This document shows positions 37,018 to 46,071 of a stretch of DNA of 64,000 bases, in pieces. Positions within the stretch are counted from its first letter, which is position 1. Every line of letters starts with the position of its first letter. Both the position numbers and the translations under genes were made by a program. The DNA is from Pseudobacteriovorax antillogorgiicola. GTDB lineage: Bacteria > Bdellovibrionota_B > Oligoflexia > Oligoflexales > Oligoflexaceae. The stretch is from contig NZ_FWZT01000007.1 of the NCBI RefSeq assembly GCF_900177345.1, positions 124,001 to 188,000 of the forward strand, read 5' to 3'. The notes under the pieces are model-generated. The model was given only the letters and a program-made list of their open reading frames with translations, was not told the DNA's origin and did not search any database.

Positions 37018-37749
37018 TTGCGAATCGTCATCTACGGTAAGACAGATATTGGTCGCACCCGAAAAAACAACCAAGATAGCCTTTATGTCAGTTCTGAACA
37101 TGGCTTGGTGGTCGTTGCTGATGGAATCGGTGGTCGTAAGGGAGGAGAGGTTGCTTCTAAGATGGCCGTCGATGGCATGAAGCAGGCCTACCTTTCCTGT
37201 GACAGTTTGCGTCACGAGGAAGTCTCACCCTTCTTGATCAAGAGCATCGATAAAGTCAACCAGTCCATCATCAAACACGGCAAAAAACATAGCGAAGTAG
37301 AAGGTTTGGCAACGACCCTTAACTGTCTTTTGTTTGTTGGTGAGAAAGCCTACATTTGCCATCTCGGTGATAGTCGAACCTACCTTTACTATAAGGCGAA
37401 CATGTGGCAGCTGACATTCGACCACAACATTGAAAACTATGTAGAACGGGGATGGCTTCCTGATGAAACTCTGATGAATAATTCAAAGCCAGGAGCTTTG
37501 GTTCGTGCTCTGGGCTTGGCCGAAGAGTGTGATGTTGATATTTACGAGATCAATCTCAAACCTGGTGAGATCTTGATCACTTGCTCTGACGGCCTTACGT
37601 CGATGGTGAGTGACAGCGAAATTCGAAAAATCGTACAGGCAAATTCCCATCAATTACATCATTTACCAAAGCTCCTTGTGGACACAGCAAATAGAAACGG
37701 TGGGCAGGACAATATTACAGTGGCTATTTCAGGAGTGCTAAGAGACTGA
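37018..37749 (+). CDS. PP2C-family Ser/Thr protein phosphatase
   Basis: 243 aa, from TTG. Metal-binding motifs NQDS, VADGIGGRKGGE, GDSRTY, SDGL and GGQDNIT are all present, so it should be an active Mg/Mn-dependent phosphatase of the PrpC/Stp type. It is the natural opponent of the Ser/Thr kinase at 29857, although the two are about 5 kb apart on opposite strands. It ends inside the ATG of the next gene (1-nt overlap) and is translationally coupled to it. Confidence 0.93.
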   Translation: MRIVIYGKTDIGRTRKNNQDSLYVSSEHGLVVVADGIGGRKGGEVASKMAVDGMKQAYLSCDSLRHEEVSPFLIKSIDKVNQSIIKHGKKHSEVEGLATTLNCLLFVGEKAYICHLGDSRTYLYYKANMWQLTFDHNIENYVERGWLPDETLMNNSKPGALVRALGLAEECDVDIYEINLKPGEILITCSDGLTSMVSDSEIRKIVQANSHQLHHLPKLLVDTANRNGGQDNITVAISGVLRD

Positions 37750-39059
37750 TGTCAGACAAGCTCTATCTCATTCGCGTGGATATGGAACGCTTCATCGGCC
37801 CGGTGACCTTAAAAGAGGTTCGCGATTCCTATCGACGCATGGAGTTTGGCCTACAGGATGAAATCGCCTCTAGCAACAAACCTTGGGTCGCTTTTGACGA
37901 CCTAGAGCGAGTCAATCGCATTTATCCAGAGCTAGCAAACCTGATCAAGAAAGAAATGCTGTCCGGCTGGGGAAGTACGGAGCCAGAGCCTCGCACCATA
38001 CCAGGTGCAGAAAGTCTTGATTCGATTCATCGTCGAAGTCTGTCGCTTTTGATCAAATCGATTTTATTTTTGGTCGTCGCAGCGTTGATTTTCTTAGGGG
38101 TCTATGTGGTGCGCGAGAAAAAAGTTCACCAATTGAAAATGCTCTTTCAAGACCCTACGTTCGCACAGGCTCTTTTTTATTATGGCGAAAGCTACAATCC
38201 AACGTTTGAAGCATTTATGGATCGACATCGGGTTGATATCAATCGCGCCTTGAAGAAAAGGCGCTCCTACCTATTGTGGATACCCTATGTTCGTGCCGTA
38301 TCTTTTGCAAAAAATGGTAGCTGGGAAGGGCTTTCAGCAAAGAAGCTGAGGGGCAAGGATGCTCACTTTTCGCCTCTCGACTGCTCCTTAGATGCTTGGA
38401 AAGACCGCTGGCAAAAAAGCAGAAATCAGTGGACAGATTTTTTAGAAGGGAAGTCACTGCCTCAGCAGGATTGGGCAAAAGTCTTGCTTTGGGACCCACG
38501 CTGGATTGGTCAGAGAGTTCGTCATCCCTATTGGATCGAGCCACGCAACTATTATGAGGCTTGTTTAAAGATGGCTGTTAAGTCTTTAGAAACCTCCACT
38601 GATGCTGAATCCGACCTTGAAACGAAAGTGGTGTTATCAAGGCTAAAATGGAATCTCAACCATATCGACGAACTTAGCATGCTCGGTGAAGAAGAAGAAT
38701 ATCAAATGTCCGGCAGCCTTTGGGTGCTGAGCTGCATCGAAAGTTCCGCAGATTCTGAAGCGGTAGCACAGTGCAGCGAAAGCATGAGCTTTGGCCGAGA
38801 TTGGAAACGTCTAATAGGGGAAAGGCAAAGGCTGCGAGAAGCACGGCTTATGCTTGCGAATAACTCGTCCCTCCAAGGGCAGAAGTTAGAAGACTTTAAA
38901 AGTAGCATTCAGAATGTGCCACAGCGAGGCTTTACTACGAAGTTTGACTATCGAGAAGAGATTAAGTTTTTCCAACTGATCATCCAGAACGAAGGAAAGC
39001 TTGAGCAAGCGGAAGTCAAGATGAGGGAGCGGAGCCCGAGTCTTCGCTTTCTACATTAG
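37749..39059 (+). CDS. single-pass membrane protein with GYF-like N-terminus
   Basis: 436 aa. The N-terminal ~65 residues (YLIRVDMERFIGPVTLKEV, then a W-V-A-F near residue 47) resemble a GYF-2-type domain. One transmembrane span lies at ~101-121, followed by a ~310-residue soluble domain, rich in Trp and charged residues, which I do not recognise. Directly coupled to the PP2C gene and followed 14 nt later by a TPR-barrel gene, so it may tie the phosphatase to the envelope. Confidence 0.72.
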   Translation: MSDKLYLIRVDMERFIGPVTLKEVRDSYRRMEFGLQDEIASSNKPWVAFDDLERVNRIYPELANLIKKEMLSGWGSTEPEPRTIPGAESLDSIHRRSLSLLIKSILFLVVAALIFLGVYVVREKKVHQLKMLFQDPTFAQALFYYGESYNPTFEAFMDRHRVDINRALKKRRSYLLWIPYVRAVSFAKNGSWEGLSAKKLRGKDAHFSPLDCSLDAWKDRWQKSRNQWTDFLEGKSLPQQDWAKVLLWDPRWIGQRVRHPYWIEPRNYYEACLKMAVKSLETSTDAESDLETKVVLSRLKWNLNHIDELSMLGEEEEYQMSGSLWVLSCIESSADSEAVAQCSESMSFGRDWKRLIGERQRLREARLMLANNSSLQGQKLEDFKSSIQNVPQRGFTTKFDYREEIKFFQLIIQNEGKLEQAEVKMRERSPSLRFLH

Positions 39060-39073
39060 CTTCGGAGGAGTCG

Positions 39074-40888
39074 ATGGCAAGGCTTTTATTCTTAATCAGC
39101 CTGCTAAGCATGCCCGTCCTTGGCCAAACGTTTGATCAACGATTTCGTCAGGCTCAATCATATTATGACAATCAGCAATATCGCAAGGCTGGCAAGGTGC
39201 TGGTGCCACTGATCCGGGAGTTTCCAAACCGAAGTTCAGCTTTAGAGTTGTTGGCCCTCGTCTACTTTCAGCGTGGTAAGTTTAGCCAGGCGCGAGATGT
39301 TTTTGATCGGATGAACTATCGTGAGTTGAGTCGCGATGCGGGCTACGCTTGGGGCGCTAGCTATTATGCTGCGAAGCAGTGGAAAAAGGCGGTCTATGGC
39401 TTTAAGAAAGTACCACGAAAAAGCCCTTACCGACCATTGGCAGCCTACTTCCTTGGAGTTAGTTATTTTCGAATGAAACGCTGGTATCCTGCCAAGAAGT
39501 TTCTCCTGAGGGCAGATGATGATAAACTCCTGCCGATTATGAAGCGCAATAAGGCTCGGATGCTGGTAGCCATTAAAAAGCGCCGAAACGAAGAGCTGCG
39601 AAGCATCATCAGTTCATCAGGTACCGGAGTCGCAAGCCCTGGTAGTGGGCCGAAAGCCATGGTGATTCAACCCACACCTCCGCCTCAAAAATTTGTCTTC
39701 CAAGATAAGGCAGCTGAATTGACTGAACCGGAGTCGCGATCGCTTTCCGTAAAGGCAGATCTGCGTCTCAATCAATTGAGTCGGACCATGGAAAACCATG
39801 GTTTTGTAAATGAAACCTTGGATGTGATCGCCCATCGTGAATCTTTAGAGCTGGGACTTATGTCTAGTTTTGGTCGAGATCAGCAAAGCACCTTCGGCTT
39901 GCGGGCTAAATTAGGATATGGTGAGGTTTCATTTGATTCGACGGCTTCGTCTTTTATTACTTTGGAACAGACCACAGGCTCGTTTATCAGGACGGAAAAA
40001 ACGAGCCTATCCGAGGCTTATCTAAGTGGCTGGCTAGAGCCTTATTTAAGCTGGAGTCTCACCCCTATGACGCATGTTCAAATATCAGCCTACATTGAAG
40101 AACACGGGCCTCAGAGCGATGATGGGGTGGTTTGGTCGAATCGATTTGCTGACCTATCATTCCAGCTAAATAAGAATGCCCTTGAATTTACGTTCAACCT
40201 ATTAGGAGGTGAGCGCACCGACGAGGGCTTGGGTACGCAAACTGTGGAAACCAGCTTCGGAGCTGGCTTGGCTTGGGAAGGAGAGCCATTTAACATCGCA
40301 GCTGACGCTATGATAACAAACCGGGTGGGTGATATTTATGTGTCGAGCAATCCATATCGCTGGCTCTTAAGTGATCTTGGCTTGGAAGCGATGAATGGCT
40401 ATGGGGAGTTGCAATCATTTGGCATGCGCCTCGGTTTAAACTTTGGTGACTTAGAAACCCAAATTCGAGCCCGGATATTGAATCGAAACAAGCCGAATGG
40501 AATCGTTACCCGGCCGCGGCAAACAGATTTCATCGATACCTATGGAACAGGGGTTGATCGCGTTGAAGCGGTCTTATCCTATCCAGTTTTTGAGGGGGTT
40601 TCTCTTTTTGGTAGTGGTGGCTTCCAGGCTATCACTGGCTATGTGGATGACATCACCTTAGAAGGTAGTGAAACACCAAATTACTATGAGGCTGATGCGG
40701 AGCAAACCAATAGCGCGTTTGGCGCCATTGCACAGCCTTTTGAGTGGCTTAGCCTAAATGCCAAGCTTGGCTTTCACACCACCGTCTATCGGCCCCGCAA
40801 CTTCAGCCTTAATGATGCTTTTCGTCAAGAAAATCCTGATTTCTCCACCTACTCAAGTTTCTATTTAAACGTCTTTTATGAATTTTGA
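39074..40888 (+). CDS. TPR protein with C-terminal outer-membrane beta-barrel (third copy)
   Basis: 604 aa, ATG with GGAGGAG. Signal peptide (~1-17), TPR repeats (~20-185), Pro-rich linker (~195-210), then a strand-rich barrel ending FYLNVFYEF. The TPR part resembles 508-2181 closely in order and in a V-P-x-x-(S/H)-P then Leu-Ala-x-Tyr pattern. It is co-transcribed with the PP2C and GYF-like genes. Its last 13 nt overlap, tail to tail, the PDZ/S41-like gene. Confidence 0.82.
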   Translation: MARLLFLISLLSMPVLGQTFDQRFRQAQSYYDNQQYRKAGKVLVPLIREFPNRSSALELLALVYFQRGKFSQARDVFDRMNYRELSRDAGYAWGASYYAAKQWKKAVYGFKKVPRKSPYRPLAAYFLGVSYFRMKRWYPAKKFLLRADDDKLLPIMKRNKARMLVAIKKRRNEELRSIISSSGTGVASPGSGPKAMVIQPTPPPQKFVFQDKAAELTEPESRSLSVKADLRLNQLSRTMENHGFVNETLDVIAHRESLELGLMSSFGRDQQSTFGLRAKLGYGEVSFDSTASSFITLEQTTGSFIRTEKTSLSEAYLSGWLEPYLSWSLTPMTHVQISAYIEEHGPQSDDGVVWSNRFADLSFQLNKNALEFTFNLLGGERTDEGLGTQTVETSFGAGLAWEGEPFNIAADAMITNRVGDIYVSSNPYRWLLSDLGLEAMNGYGELQSFGMRLGLNFGDLETQIRARILNRNKPNGIVTRPRQTDFIDTYGTGVDRVEAVLSYPVFEGVSLFGSGGFQAITGYVDDITLEGSETPNYYEADAEQTNSAFGAIAQPFEWLSLNAKLGFHTTVYRPRNFSLNDAFRQENPDFSTYSSFYLNVFYEF

Positions 40889-42018: not shown

Positions 42019-42660
42019 ATGGAACACAAAGAATCACCTGAAGAGAGCTTTAACCAGGCTCAATTACTGAAGAATTCAAGTATGTTCTACCTCTGTATTG
42101 GCGCTGTCGGTTTGATGGTTTCTTATTTTCATCACGACAATATGGCAAGATCTTGGGCCCTGTCGAGCCCTGACTATGCCAATTGGGAAGTAATCTCTCT
42201 TGGGTTGTTAACAGCTGGCGTTCTTGCTGTAATGGCGTATCTATTTGAAGACTTTTTCCCAAGCTACCGTGCCTTGAAGCGTGTTATGGTTGGCCTAATG
42301 GGCAGGATGACTTGGCCTGGGGCGATTTATCTAGCTTTGCTATCCGCTGTGTCCGAGGAGATTTTATTTCGGACCGCGATCCAGCCCTCAGCAGGAGTAG
42401 TTCTCACAGCAGCATTATTTGCAGTTTTACACCTAGGTCCCGCCCAACAGTTTGGGGTTTGGGCGCTGATTGCCTTTTTAAGTGGCCTAGTATTCGGTTG
42501 GACTTACGAGGCAACTGGCTTGATTCTACCCTCTTTAATCGGCCATATTCTTGTGAATCTGATCTCATTTTGGCGATTCCGAATCTCCTTTCAAAAAGCT
42601 AAAAAACGGGCTGAGAAAAAAGAGGGCCTAAGCCCCGATGCTCCACGAGGTGTTAAGTGA
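42019..42660 (+). CDS. CPBP-family intramembrane metalloprotease
   Basis: 213 aa, with about five hydrophobic segments. The three CPBP (CAAX/ABI) motifs are present: SEEILFR, FAVLHLG and GHILVNL, giving the glutamate and histidine ligands of an intramembrane protease. Substrate unknown. Its stop overlaps the GTG start of trmL by 4 nt. Confidence 0.9.
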   Translation: MEHKESPEESFNQAQLLKNSSMFYLCIGAVGLMVSYFHHDNMARSWALSSPDYANWEVISLGLLTAGVLAVMAYLFEDFFPSYRALKRVMVGLMGRMTWPGAIYLALLSAVSEEILFRTAIQPSAGVVLTAALFAVLHLGPAQQFGVWALIAFLSGLVFGWTYEATGLILPSLIGHILVNLISFWRFRISFQKAKKRAEKKEGLSPDAPRGVK

Positions 42661-43121
42661 GACAAGGACATCCGCAAATCTGCCTATTTCAGCCGGAAAT
42701 TCCACAGAATACCGGCAATATAGGGCGGTTGGCAGCTGCTACCGCATGCCGTTTACATCTAGTGAAACCTTTTGGGTTTTCCATGAGCGATAAAAACTTG
42801 CGGCGACCCGGGCTTGACTACTGGCCATGTCTGGACTTGGAAATTCACGATCAGTTTGAGTCGGTTTATAGGCAGTGTCATGGTAAGGTAGCCTTTTTTA
42901 CAAAGTTTGCTGATGCAGATTACACTCAGGTTCCGGAAGATACGGAGCTACTGGTTTTCGGGCAAGAAACATCGGGTCTTCCAGAATCCTTTCATGAGAC
43001 TTATGCTCACCAGCTTTACCGGATTCCCATGTTTCATCCGGAGGTGAGAAGCTTGAATCTATCCAACGCAGTCTCGATAATTGTATACGACCAATTGCGC
43101 AAGCGTGGTCTTCTTCACTAG
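42657..43121 (+). CDS. trmL: tRNA (cytidine(34)-2'-O)-methyltransferase
   Basis: 154 aa, GTG start. SPOUT signatures FQPEIPQNTGNIGRLA, FGQETSGLP and RSLNLSNAVSI mark the TrmL (YibK) enzymes. It 2'-O-methylates the wobble base of tRNA-Leu. Coupled by a 4-nt overlap to the CPBP gene and 9 nt ahead of hisC. Confidence 0.94.
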   Translation: MRQGHPQICLFQPEIPQNTGNIGRLAAATACRLHLVKPFGFSMSDKNLRRPGLDYWPCLDLEIHDQFESVYRQCHGKVAFFTKFADADYTQVPEDTELLVFGQETSGLPESFHETYAHQLYRIPMFHPEVRSLNLSNAVSIIVYDQLRKRGLLH

Positions 43122-43130
43122 GAGAATCCT

Positions 43131-44240
43131 ATGAGTCAAGAAAAAATTACCCCTAAGACACCAGATCAAACGTGGCTCGAAAGCTACTTTTATCCAACCC
43201 TACTAGAAGCAAAAGCCTATAAGATCGATACTCCAGTGGTTGATGTGAAGCTCGACCAAAATGAGAGCCCTTGGGATTGGCCACAGCACTTGAAGAAGAA
43301 AATATTAGATCGCGTTGCGGAGAAACCTTGGAATCGCTATCCAGAACCCATAGGAGAGGAACTGCACCAACGACTTTCTGATTATGTTGGTGTTCCAGCA
43401 AACTGCCTGCTCACCAGCCCTGGTTCGAATATGATGATCCCCCTGGTGTTTGATGCGATGGCCAAAAGCCTGTCTGGCAAAGTGGTGGTAGCGAGACCTT
43501 CATTTGCCTTGTTTGAAATGCACTGCAACTACGCCGGGATTCCCTACGAAACATGGGATCTTGACGAGAACTTTGAGTATCAGCTCGATCGTCTGCCTGA
43601 GCTTCCCGATGGTTCGTTTGTTGTCTTTGCGAGCCCAAACAATCCAACGGGAACAAGTATCTCCCCTGAAATGCTTGAAACCATGCTTGCTCAGAACCCG
43701 AAAACCATGTTCTTAGCTGATGAAGCTTACTATGAGTTCAACGATCAGCCTTATACCCACCTGATGGCGAAATATAGCAATCTCATGATCCTAAGAACAA
43801 TGTCCAAAACTATGGGGGCTGCTGGCGTGCGCTTAGGCTACCTCATGGCACCTGCGGCAATTATCGAGCAAGTTAAGAAGCTTCGCCTACCATATTTGCT
43901 CAATCATTTTTCAATGGAGGCGGCGAAAATCATCTTGAGTGACGATGAGATGCAGGCCTTTGTGAAGAAGAATATTGAGAACGCCGTTAGCGAAAGAGAT
44001 CGGATCTATCAAGCTCTTTCAAAGAAAGCTGCTGATGGTGGCTTCCGTGTTTTTAACTCCAAAGCGAACTTTTTGTTGTTGCAATGGCTGCAAGCGGACG
44101 CCTGTGATAAGGCTTATCGGCACCTAATAGAGAAGGGTATTCTGGTTAGAAATATGAGCAAGGGCCCTGGCTTAGCAGGCTGCTTGCGAGTCAGCATCGG
44201 CACCCAGGAAGAAAATGATCGACTAATCGCTGTATTCTAA
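43131..44240 (+). CDS. hisC: histidinol-phosphate aminotransferase
   Basis: 369 aa. PLP enzyme of class I/II: LDQNESPW opening, SPNNPTGT, DEAYYEF and the PLP Lys in RTMSKTMGAAGVRLGY. HisC converts imidazole-acetol phosphate to histidinol phosphate. No other his gene is in the window, so it may also act on aromatic amino acids; the assignment is by family, not context. Confidence 0.88.
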   Translation: MSQEKITPKTPDQTWLESYFYPTLLEAKAYKIDTPVVDVKLDQNESPWDWPQHLKKKILDRVAEKPWNRYPEPIGEELHQRLSDYVGVPANCLLTSPGSNMMIPLVFDAMAKSLSGKVVVARPSFALFEMHCNYAGIPYETWDLDENFEYQLDRLPELPDGSFVVFASPNNPTGTSISPEMLETMLAQNPKTMFLADEAYYEFNDQPYTHLMAKYSNLMILRTMSKTMGAAGVRLGYLMAPAAIIEQVKKLRLPYLLNHFSMEAAKIILSDDEMQAFVKKNIENAVSERDRIYQALSKKAADGGFRVFNSKANFLLLQWLQADACDKAYRHLIEKGILVRNMSKGPGLAGCLRVSIGTQEENDRLIAVF

Positions 44241-44298
44241 GGACCTTAGAGAGCCTCTGAGCATATAGTTTCTTGATTCCTAAAGGATACAGAATCTT

Positions 44299-44335: not shown

Positions 44336-45577
44336 ATGGCTGAAGTCAGGGACTTAGCTAAAAAATTTGGTCTAAGTATTCCTACCCAAGTGGATCAGGA
44401 GGATATCGTCTGTCTGGTCGAAGATCAGACGGATATGCGCCTCATTGTAGCCCACCATCTGAACAAAATCGGCTTTAAAAACATCAAACAGTTCACCAAT
44501 GGTCATGAAGCGCTGGATTGGTTGAAAAACAGCAATACAGCTAAGATTTCAGTTACGATATGCGATCATGAAATGCCGATTATGAACGGTTTTGACTTCC
44601 TAGCTGAACTCAAAGCCGATCCCGACTTGGTCCGCGGTCCTTTCGCTATTACCATCGATAATCCCAGTCGAGCGAAAATCATGTTGGCCACCGAAAATGG
44701 GGTGGATGGTGTGCTTGTGAAACCGTTTACCCTGAAGGATATTCTACCCAAACTTCGTCAGGCATTTAAGGTGTTCCATAATCCTGGCAATCCCGAACTA
44801 CTTTATGAAAATGCCAAAGGCGAGTTGAGGCAAGGCAACTTGGAAAAGGCTGAGCACGTCTACAAAAGCCTTATGGATGTCACCTCAAAAGCAGCCCGAC
44901 CCTTGGTTGGTTTAGCCCAAGTAGCGGTACGCAAGGACGATTTCACCAGGGCCGAAGCCCTATTAAAATCTGCTGAGGAGCGTAACGATCACTACGTCCA
45001 TCTATATGTGGAGCGGGGTGAGTTGTTTTCCAAGCAGAATCGTGTGGAAGAAGCTATTGGAGAATTTAAGCGAGCAATCCAACTATCGCCACTCAACCCA
45101 ATCCGATACGAGCGCGCTGCTCAGCTTTTATTTAAACTAGATAAGCACCAGGAAGCGATTGATATACTTAATATCGCCATTCAAAATGAGCTATCATTTC
45201 CCGCACTGCATCACTACTTGAGCCAAGGGTACTACGTCCTTAAAGAATACAAGAAAGCAATCCGCCATATCCGTTCAGCTCTAAGTGTTGAGCCTGAAAA
45301 TGTGGTATACCTGAATCAACTTGGTATTTCCTACAAGGAGTCAGAAGAGCCAGAGGCAGCCCTGAAGACGTACAATCAAATCATCAAGCTCGATCCTGAA
45401 AACAAGGCAGCTCTCTATAATAAGGCCATCTTAATGAAGGTTAAGGGTAATCTCGATGAGGCCATCAAGGTCTTAGACCGCTGTTTGACAAAGCACCCTA
45501 ACTTCAAGCAAGCTAAGGACAAGTACGATGAGTACAGGGCTGAGAAGGAAGAGCAGAAGAAGGAACAAGCAAGCTGA
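44336..45577 (+). CDS. response regulator with TPR repeats
   Basis: 413 aa. A receiver domain (~20-145) has the acidic patch VEDQ, phosphoacceptor Asp in TICDHEMPIMNG, the ITID segment and LVKPF, so it looks functional. Residues ~155-400 form about seven TPR repeats. No DNA-binding output is present, so it should act by protein contacts. Its translation is likely controlled by a hairpin over its ribosome site. The stop overlaps sixA by 1 nt. Confidence 0.9.
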   Translation: MAEVRDLAKKFGLSIPTQVDQEDIVCLVEDQTDMRLIVAHHLNKIGFKNIKQFTNGHEALDWLKNSNTAKISVTICDHEMPIMNGFDFLAELKADPDLVRGPFAITIDNPSRAKIMLATENGVDGVLVKPFTLKDILPKLRQAFKVFHNPGNPELLYENAKGELRQGNLEKAEHVYKSLMDVTSKAARPLVGLAQVAVRKDDFTRAEALLKSAEERNDHYVHLYVERGELFSKQNRVEEAIGEFKRAIQLSPLNPIRYERAAQLLFKLDKHQEAIDILNIAIQNELSFPALHHYLSQGYYVLKEYKKAIRHIRSALSVEPENVVYLNQLGISYKESEEPEAALKTYNQIIKLDPENKAALYNKAILMKVKGNLDEAIKVLDRCLTKHPNFKQAKDKYDEYRAEKEEQKKEQAS

Positions 45578-46071
45578 TGAAAACCATCATTCTCCTAAGG
45601 CATGGAGAAGCCGAATCCCCCGGAAAATTTGAAGATCATGAACGTCCTCTAACGGCAAGAGGTCACAGCCAAGCTCAGTTTATTGGCCAAGCACTCCAAA
45701 GCCGCGGGCTGATTCCTGACGGCGTGATTGTCAGCGATGCCAAACGAACTGTTGAAACCTATAAAAATGTCAAGGATGTAATGGAGCTGAATCCCCGACA
45801 GGAGGTGGTGTCCAGCCGCTTTTATCTTGCTGGTGTCGATCGTATTTTTGAAGAGATGGCTGCCATAGAGGATGACATCAATACAGTTCTATTAATTGGC
45901 CATAATCCTGGCTGGAGTGAAGCCATTGGAGTCTACACTGGTGAATATGAAAGTTTAGGAACTGGCGAAGCGGGTCTCATGAACATCGAGCAAGGGCCTT
46001 GGCTAGAATTGCTTGGGCGAAGCTACCAATGGCAGCTAAAAGAAAAGCTTGGCGCTAGCATAACGAGATGA
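45577..46071 (+). CDS. sixA: SixA-type phosphohistidine phosphatase
   Basis: 164 aa. RHGEAE at the N-terminus and IGHNPG near residue 108 are the two His-phosphatase motifs. SixA-type enzymes remove phosphate from phosphohistidine in phosphorelay or PTS proteins. Translational coupling to a receiver-TPR gene (ATG over the stop) suggests that it acts on the histidine kinase or phosphotransfer protein feeding that regulator; this is inference. Confidence 0.9.
   Translation: MKTIILLRHGEAESPGKFEDHERPLTARGHSQAQFIGQALQSRGLIPDGVIVSDAKRTVETYKNVKDVMELNPRQEVVSSRFYLAGVDRIFEEMAAIEDDINTVLLIGHNPGWSEAIGVYTGEYESLGTGEAGLMNIEQGPWLELLGRSYQWQLKEKLGASITR

Follow-up and report, generated by a model that had tools for sequence, protein, structure and literature searches.

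A receiver-TPR gene and a SixA-like phosphatase gene lie side by side in the family of Pseudobacteriovorax antillogorgiicola

The gene pair and its surroundings

We analyzed a 64,000-nucleotide stretch of the Pseudobacteriovorax antillogorgiicola genome (G000, 7.28 Mb), hereafter the window, which corresponds to positions 124,001 to 188,000 of contig NZ_FWZT01000007.1, together with relatives divided into genome groups f1 to f13, of which f1 (7 genomes) is the window's own family. Two adjoining genes on the forward strand of the window are the subject of this report. The first (44336..45577) encodes a 413-aa protein in which a receiver-like domain precedes tetratricopeptide repeats (TPRs), as judged from the open reading frame (ORF) list, matches to PF00072 and to TPR models, an AlphaFold2 model, and orthologues. 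The second (45577..46071) encodes a 164-aa SixA-like phosphohistidine phosphatase, recognized from matches to PF00300 and TIGR00249 and from alignment with chain 1ujb of Escherichia coli SixA. The TGA stop codon of the receiver-TPR gene occupies positions 45575-45577 and the ATG of the SixA-like gene begins at 45577, creating a 1-nt TGATG stop/start overlap (45575..45579, forward strand) that is also present in the relative G003. An earlier model-made reading of the letters and ORF list (the sequence-only reading) had drawn attention to this overlap, which is indeed there. We regard it as ordinary and rejected it as decisive evidence, because overlaps of 1-30 nt occur in 7 of the window's 36 same-strand pairs of neighbouring ORFs (counting ORFs of 100 aa or more), including the CPBP-protease/trmL pair just 5' of the locus, and because a SixA gene of the relative G033 overlaps the stop codon of nuoI in the same manner, by one base (TAATG; L162:3634-4718, contig G033:C46).

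Upstream of the pair and on the same strand lies a block (42019..44240), defined by family matches and synteny, that consists of a CPBP-family protease gene (42019-42660), a trmL-like gene (42657-43121), and a hisC-like gene (43131-44240). A weak terminator-like hairpin was found between hisC and the receiver-TPR gene (44245..44261, forward strand), in a scanned region that contains 5 such hairpins versus 2.1 expected. On the 3' side, the SixA-like gene is followed, on the opposite strand, by a tetR-type gene assigned by family match and by a 1065-aa ORF, taken from the ORF list only, for a putative RND-type transporter. No histidine kinase gene adjoins the pair according to the ORF list and the family matches of its immediate neighbours (hisC-like, trmL-like, and tetR-type), in agreement with the earlier statement that a linked kinase is lacking. 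Farther upstream, the region 37018-40888 and the gene preceding it make up a four-gene block, the last member of which encodes a 604-aa TPR-containing protein; the same gene order is found in G001, and the block was not seen in the stretches examined from G004 and G005.

A degenerate receiver and a SixA-like enzyme

The Response_reg model PF00072 matches residues 25-139 of the 413-aa protein with 57.2 bits (cut-off 30.2), and the family search listed no output domain besides TPR, which bears out the earlier description of a receiver with TPR-only output. The AlphaFold2 model, calculated from an input alignment of 24 sequences including the protein's own, has a mean pLDDT of 93.0 and predicts the strands and helices of a receiver, followed by seven TPR helix pairs (residues 153-386) and a C-terminal helix (391-412). 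The 50 matches listed by a PDB fold search comprised chains with TPR or similar helical repeats, judging by their titles, and no receiver-TPR protein, and gave no pointer to binding partners. The same domain order, a receiver and then TPR repeats only, characterizes VieB of Vibrio cholerae, a comparison made by description: passages of PMC4352251 depict VieB as a receiver with TPRs and without DNA-binding or enzymatic output, encoded together with the kinase VieS and the regulator VieA (VieSAB) and binding VieS, as an inhibitor that blocks autophosphorylation of the kinase. Like VieB, the window protein is without such outputs, and it has the acceptor Asp. In contrast to VieB, it is without the active-site Thr/Ser, and its gene has no adjacent kinase gene and is followed by a phosphatase gene.

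The receiver-like domain (about residues 22-147; 44399..44776, forward strand) was evaluated in a HMMER alignment with CheY and in the columns of the orthologue alignment. In the alignment with CheY, which is ungapped in the region of strand beta4, the conserved Thr/Ser falls on Ile107; the preceding residue, Thr106, is variable among orthologues. The acidic pair E29/D30, the acceptor D77, and K129 are present, and the K-3 position holds Val126. The domain thus lacks the residues of the usual Tyr-Thr switch, having Ile107 and Val126 at these two positions. With Ile107 the domain departs from the five-residue site of a canonical receiver, and with D77 it is distinct from the aspartate-less receivers. 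Passages of PMC12632262 define a pseudo-receiver as a receiver domain in which at least one of the five active-site residues is missing, and by that definition Ile107 makes the window domain a pseudo-receiver, akin to bacterial proteins in which a Pfam receiver is without its Thr/Ser. According to the same source, pseudo-receivers that keep the Asp may function as weak receivers; with D77, E29/D30, and K129 all kept, the residues at hand suggest that the window protein may still be phosphorylated at D77, albeit weakly.

Degeneracy extends throughout the orthologue set. The alignment comprised 26 of 30 loci, leaving out L022, L023, and L024, which have in-frame stops, and the fragment L029, and the full five-residue site is found in 0/26 orthologues. 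The Thr/Ser is lost in 20 of them, the acidic pair is disrupted in 11, and the Asp and the Lys are missing from 10 and 4, respectively. All 16 rows that keep the Asp are without the Thr/Ser, and the Thr/Ser is retained in 6 of the 10 Asp-less rows. Loss of the Asp, which involves 3/3 f11 and 7/7 f12 orthologues and requires two changes on the receiver-TPR tree, makes the aligned members of these groups aspartate-less receivers, unlike the window protein. The left-out L022-L024 are likewise Asp-less. The Asp is retained in L112, which represents the remainder of the gene to which the fragment L029 of the same genome belongs and which carries Met in place of the Thr/Ser. Helix alpha1, alpha4, the beta5-KPF segment, and the linker to TPR1 belong to the best-conserved parts of the protein (mean majority share 0.70-0.78), and the Asp loop to the least conserved stretches (0.43). 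A set of orthologues in which every aligned member is without part of the receiver site bears on the evolution of pseudo-receivers.

The second protein matches PF00300 (His_Phos_1) with 38.2 bits (cut-off 21.7), which places it in branch 1 of the histidine phosphatase superfamily. Its best NCBIfam model is sixA (TIGR00249; 55.1 bits, E 7.3e-15, residues 4-116), and since this score falls below the 74.5-bit equivalog cut-off, "SixA-like" is the safe name. Residues R8, H9, R57, and H109 align with R7, H8, R55, and H108 of E. coli SixA in chain 1ujb, of which R55 and H108 are presumably catalytic, and the RHG motif (R8-H9-G10), the Arg, and the second His are kept in 7/7 f1 members. SixA removes phosphate from phosphohistidine, and the phosphate of a receiver would sit on aspartate; the enzyme is thus not expected to act on the aspartate of the receiver. 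Direct action of SixA on the receiver was rejected for this reason, and none of our results connects the substrate of the enzyme with this receiver. E. coli SixA, covered in passages of PMC6282199, PMC7948535 (for His8), and PMC12934123, belongs to the same superfamily branch with aligned catalytic residues, and the window enzyme differs from it in the sub-equivalog score and in the linkage to a receiver-TPR gene.

Linkage within and beyond the family

A SixA-like gene is located directly 3' of the receiver-TPR gene in 7/7 f1 genomes, spanning three genera; in two of them (G003 and G006), the receiver-TPR gene is represented on the contig by its 3' portion alone. The two genes overlap by 1 nt (a gap of -1 nt) in G000 and G003 and are separated by 2 nt in G001, where the start is TTG, and in G002, where it is ATG. 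The spacing is 25 nt in G004 and varies with the start chosen in G005 (15 or 30 nt) and in G006 (3 or 15 nt). Outside f1, a search with a SixA profile revealed a SixA beside the receiver-TPR orthologue in 0/25 genomes, the flanks of L006-L030 each covering at least 971 nt downstream, with almost no upstream flank in L011 and L029; the small profile used for this neighbour search included two wrong-frame rows (L073 and L079). The profile likewise detected no SixA in the wider stretches L035-L050 and in the named non-family loci, and a class-wide search of 58 genomes added two genomes, neither of which has a SixA. The sequence-only reading had advised searching for the pair in other genomes and had named a lack of linkage in close relatives as the observation that would speak against it: linkage held in every genome of f1 and was absent from the 25 genomes examined in other families.

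Full or fragmentary orthologues of the receiver-TPR protein (about 36% identity or more) are present in 33 of the 56 genomes, among them G014, which has only a short fragment and lay outside the flank search. SixA-like matches were obtained in 18 of these 33 genomes versus 9 of the 23 without a receiver-TPR protein (Fisher p = 0.29), and by this presence count the two do not constitute a co-inherited pair outside f1. Among the 25 non-family genomes, 11 have a SixA-like match (weak in G050, E 8.4e-4, and in G052, E 6.5e-5), which lies on a different contig from the receiver-TPR gene in 11/11; all of these are draft assemblies, in which separate contigs alone are no proof of distance.

On the receiver-TPR tree, which contains 5 of the 7 f1 genomes, a single change accounts for linkage, and the rows of these five genomes cluster together (99/97). 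In a SixA tree built without L073 and L079, all seven proteins of f1 likewise cluster (support 80/88); this tree warns of long branches, that of the window SixA included. Most likely, SixA has stood beside the receiver-TPR gene since about the common ancestor of f1. Among the loci mapped, the gene order CPBP-trmL-hisC-receiver-TPR is found in the window and the 4 further ones of f1, and 5 of 16 from outside the family have it without a SixA at its end (G033 of f7; G021, G031, G034, and G037 of f8). The CPBP, trmL, and hisC genes are probably older neighbours of the receiver-TPR gene than SixA and a separate transcription unit. In the ten loci with the conserved order, the gap from hisC to the receiver-TPR gene is 61-283 nt versus at most 30 nt from the latter to SixA in f1, so that the receiver-TPR and SixA-like genes probably form a unit of their own. 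In G004 and G005, the conserved block runs from an opposite-strand gene before CPBP through SixA, and the genes outside it differ from those of the window on both sides (the contig of G002 is too short to judge); the survival of the adjacency despite these changed outer flanks fits selection for joint expression.

Outside the family, SixA was found next to unrelated genes. We mapped the surroundings of eight unlinked SixA loci, one of them in G041, and assigned the neighbours at the other seven to families by searching one member per neighbour gene cluster and placing the rest by similarity clustering. SixA lies behind nuoF-nuoG-nuoI in G012, G027, and G033, behind an agcS-type amino-acid carrier gene in two genomes (G023 and G035), and just 5' of an esterase gene in two more (G013 and G037). 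The scatter of SixA over several unrelated locations within the order, once with a 1-nt overlap to nuoI, would be expected if it had come to lie 3' of the receiver-TPR gene by chance, with joint expression being of no use. The frequency of overlaps in the window (7/36 pairs) is consistent with such neighbourhood drift, as is the divergence of SixA, which is far greater than that of its neighbour (36% versus 61% identity to the G001 proteins). Gaps of at most 30 nt in 7/7 genomes of three genera, and an adjacency preserved in G004 and G005 where the outer flanks have changed, argue against drift, and we consider it unlikely.

Possible substrates, partners, and role of the pair

As reported in passages of the literature on the E. 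coli enzyme, SixA acts on NPr (PMC7948535, PMC6282199) and on Ndk, with PfkA and, in vitro, ArcB also listed (PMC12934123); its in vivo effect on ArcB signalling is disputed (PMC6282199), and SixA homologues have already been noted in genomes without NPr/HPr (PMC7948535). HPr domains were found in 8 of our 56 genomes, namely, 5/27 with SixA and 3/29 without (p = 0.46), and in 2/7 f1 genomes; the only HPr match found in G000 is inside an EIIA-HPr-EI fusion (L158:2126-4732, contig G000:C19). Thus, in contrast to the E. coli SixA/NPr pair, 22 of the 27 SixA-bearing genomes yielded no HPr domain, and HPr was rejected as a group-wide shared substrate. The distribution of Ndk is uninformative, because it is near-equal in genomes with and without SixA (24/27 versus 25/29). 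HPt domains are present in 27/27 SixA-bearing versus 21/29 other genomes (p = 0.0046), a suggestive co-occurrence that is confounded by ancestry and genome size. HPt proteins and Ndk are accordingly the substrate candidates compatible with the distribution. Little is known about SixA targets outside E. coli, and most SixA-bearing relatives are without an HPr domain, which makes a fixed neighbour a usable lead.

We favour, with a probability of about 55%, the reading that the locus is a two-gene transcription unit in which an older pseudo-receiver-TPR adaptor and a general SixA-type phosphatase each act separately. The adaptor would be no Thr-switched response regulator; instead, it would bind proteins such as kinases or HPt proteins via its receiver-like face and TPR superhelix, as VieB does with VieS, and by this analogy VieB would be the nearest functional model. 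SixA, in turn, would clear phosphohistidine on proteins encoded elsewhere, such as HPt domains, Ndk, or another phosphohistidine protein, and would leave the receiver alone. The pair being side by side in only one family, the locus appears to be an ordinary two-gene unit and no proof of a new signalling circuit; neither the lead on SixA nor the further example of a pseudo-receiver overturns current views.

In three f12 genomes, an HPt gene lies just 2 nt behind the gene of a receiver-TPR paralogue (L153:4226-5847 in G047, L154:4992-6604 in G049, and L155:4472-6084 in G044), and the paralogue receivers have Glu in place of the acceptor Asp. In G000 and G001, another receiver-TPR gene overlaps by 4 nt the gene for a 662-aa protein (L156:4966-8126, contig G000:C16; L160:4454-7596, contig G001:C66). 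The matches listed for the G000 copy of this protein include HPt and HATPase_c but not HisKA. The receivers of all five paralogues are degenerate too. By analogy, receiver-TPR proteins of the class can be coupled to phosphohistidine carriers, which would make a shared relay more plausible. As side observations, the paralogue and HPt genes of G044, G047, and G049 sit within a gene cluster common to all three, and the 662-aa protein of G000 resembles a CheA-like kinase. The G000 genome is also very rich in two-component parts, with at least 78 HPt matches (78 of 104 candidates scored) beside its HisKA matches.

These paralogues offer the best support, by analogy only, for an alternative in which adaptor and phosphatase converge on one target: the adaptor would bind a kinase or HPt protein and SixA would strip phosphohistidine from that same partner, so that one His-Asp relay would be damped twice. 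The linkage in 7/7 f1 genomes, the HPt domains in 27/27 SixA-bearing genomes, and the VieB precedent (as given in passages of PMC4352251) are in line with this possibility, and G000, with 104 HisKA matches (6 of them marked below cut-off), would provide many possible unlinked partners. However, a linked SixA is absent from 25/25 other genomes, SixA went undetected in 15 of the 33 receiver-TPR genomes and elsewhere follows unrelated genes, the common partner is still hypothetical, and the in vivo role of SixA in E. coli ArcB signalling is contested (PMC6282199). We regard a shared target as possible, though clearly less likely than separate action. Slightly less likely again in our view is the proposal of such a two-gene brake on His-Asp relays that became fixed in one family, with other lineages pairing similar receiver-TPR proteins with the HPt protein or kinase itself.

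The sequence-only reading had envisaged a self-tuned phosphorelay, in which a phosphorylated canonical receiver with TPR output would work with SixA and an orphan kinase. The presence of D77, E29/D30, and K129 and the lack of an adjacent kinase gene would suit such a circuit. Against it speak Ile107 and Val126 in place of the switching residues, a full residue set in none of the 26 aligned orthologues, the specificity of SixA for phosphohistidine rather than phosphoaspartate, the separation of the two genes outside f1 (linkage in 0/25 genomes), and the lack of correlation in their presence across the 56 genomes (p = 0.29). We consider this circuit highly improbable and retain the two-gene unit of separately acting adaptor and phosphatase as the preferred reading. 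In the open-licence library searched, we found no paper joining SixA, response regulator, and tetratricopeptide, and none on an Oligoflexus response regulator.

Two minor observations concern SixA itself. A tblastn search of SixA against plasmids returned 38 records, each of less than 60% identity. In addition, G000 carries a second SixA-like gene, encoding a 174-aa protein about 28% identical to the linked copy (L157:3385-3909, contig G000:C3), which groups with the copy of G008, and not with the linked one, on long branches.
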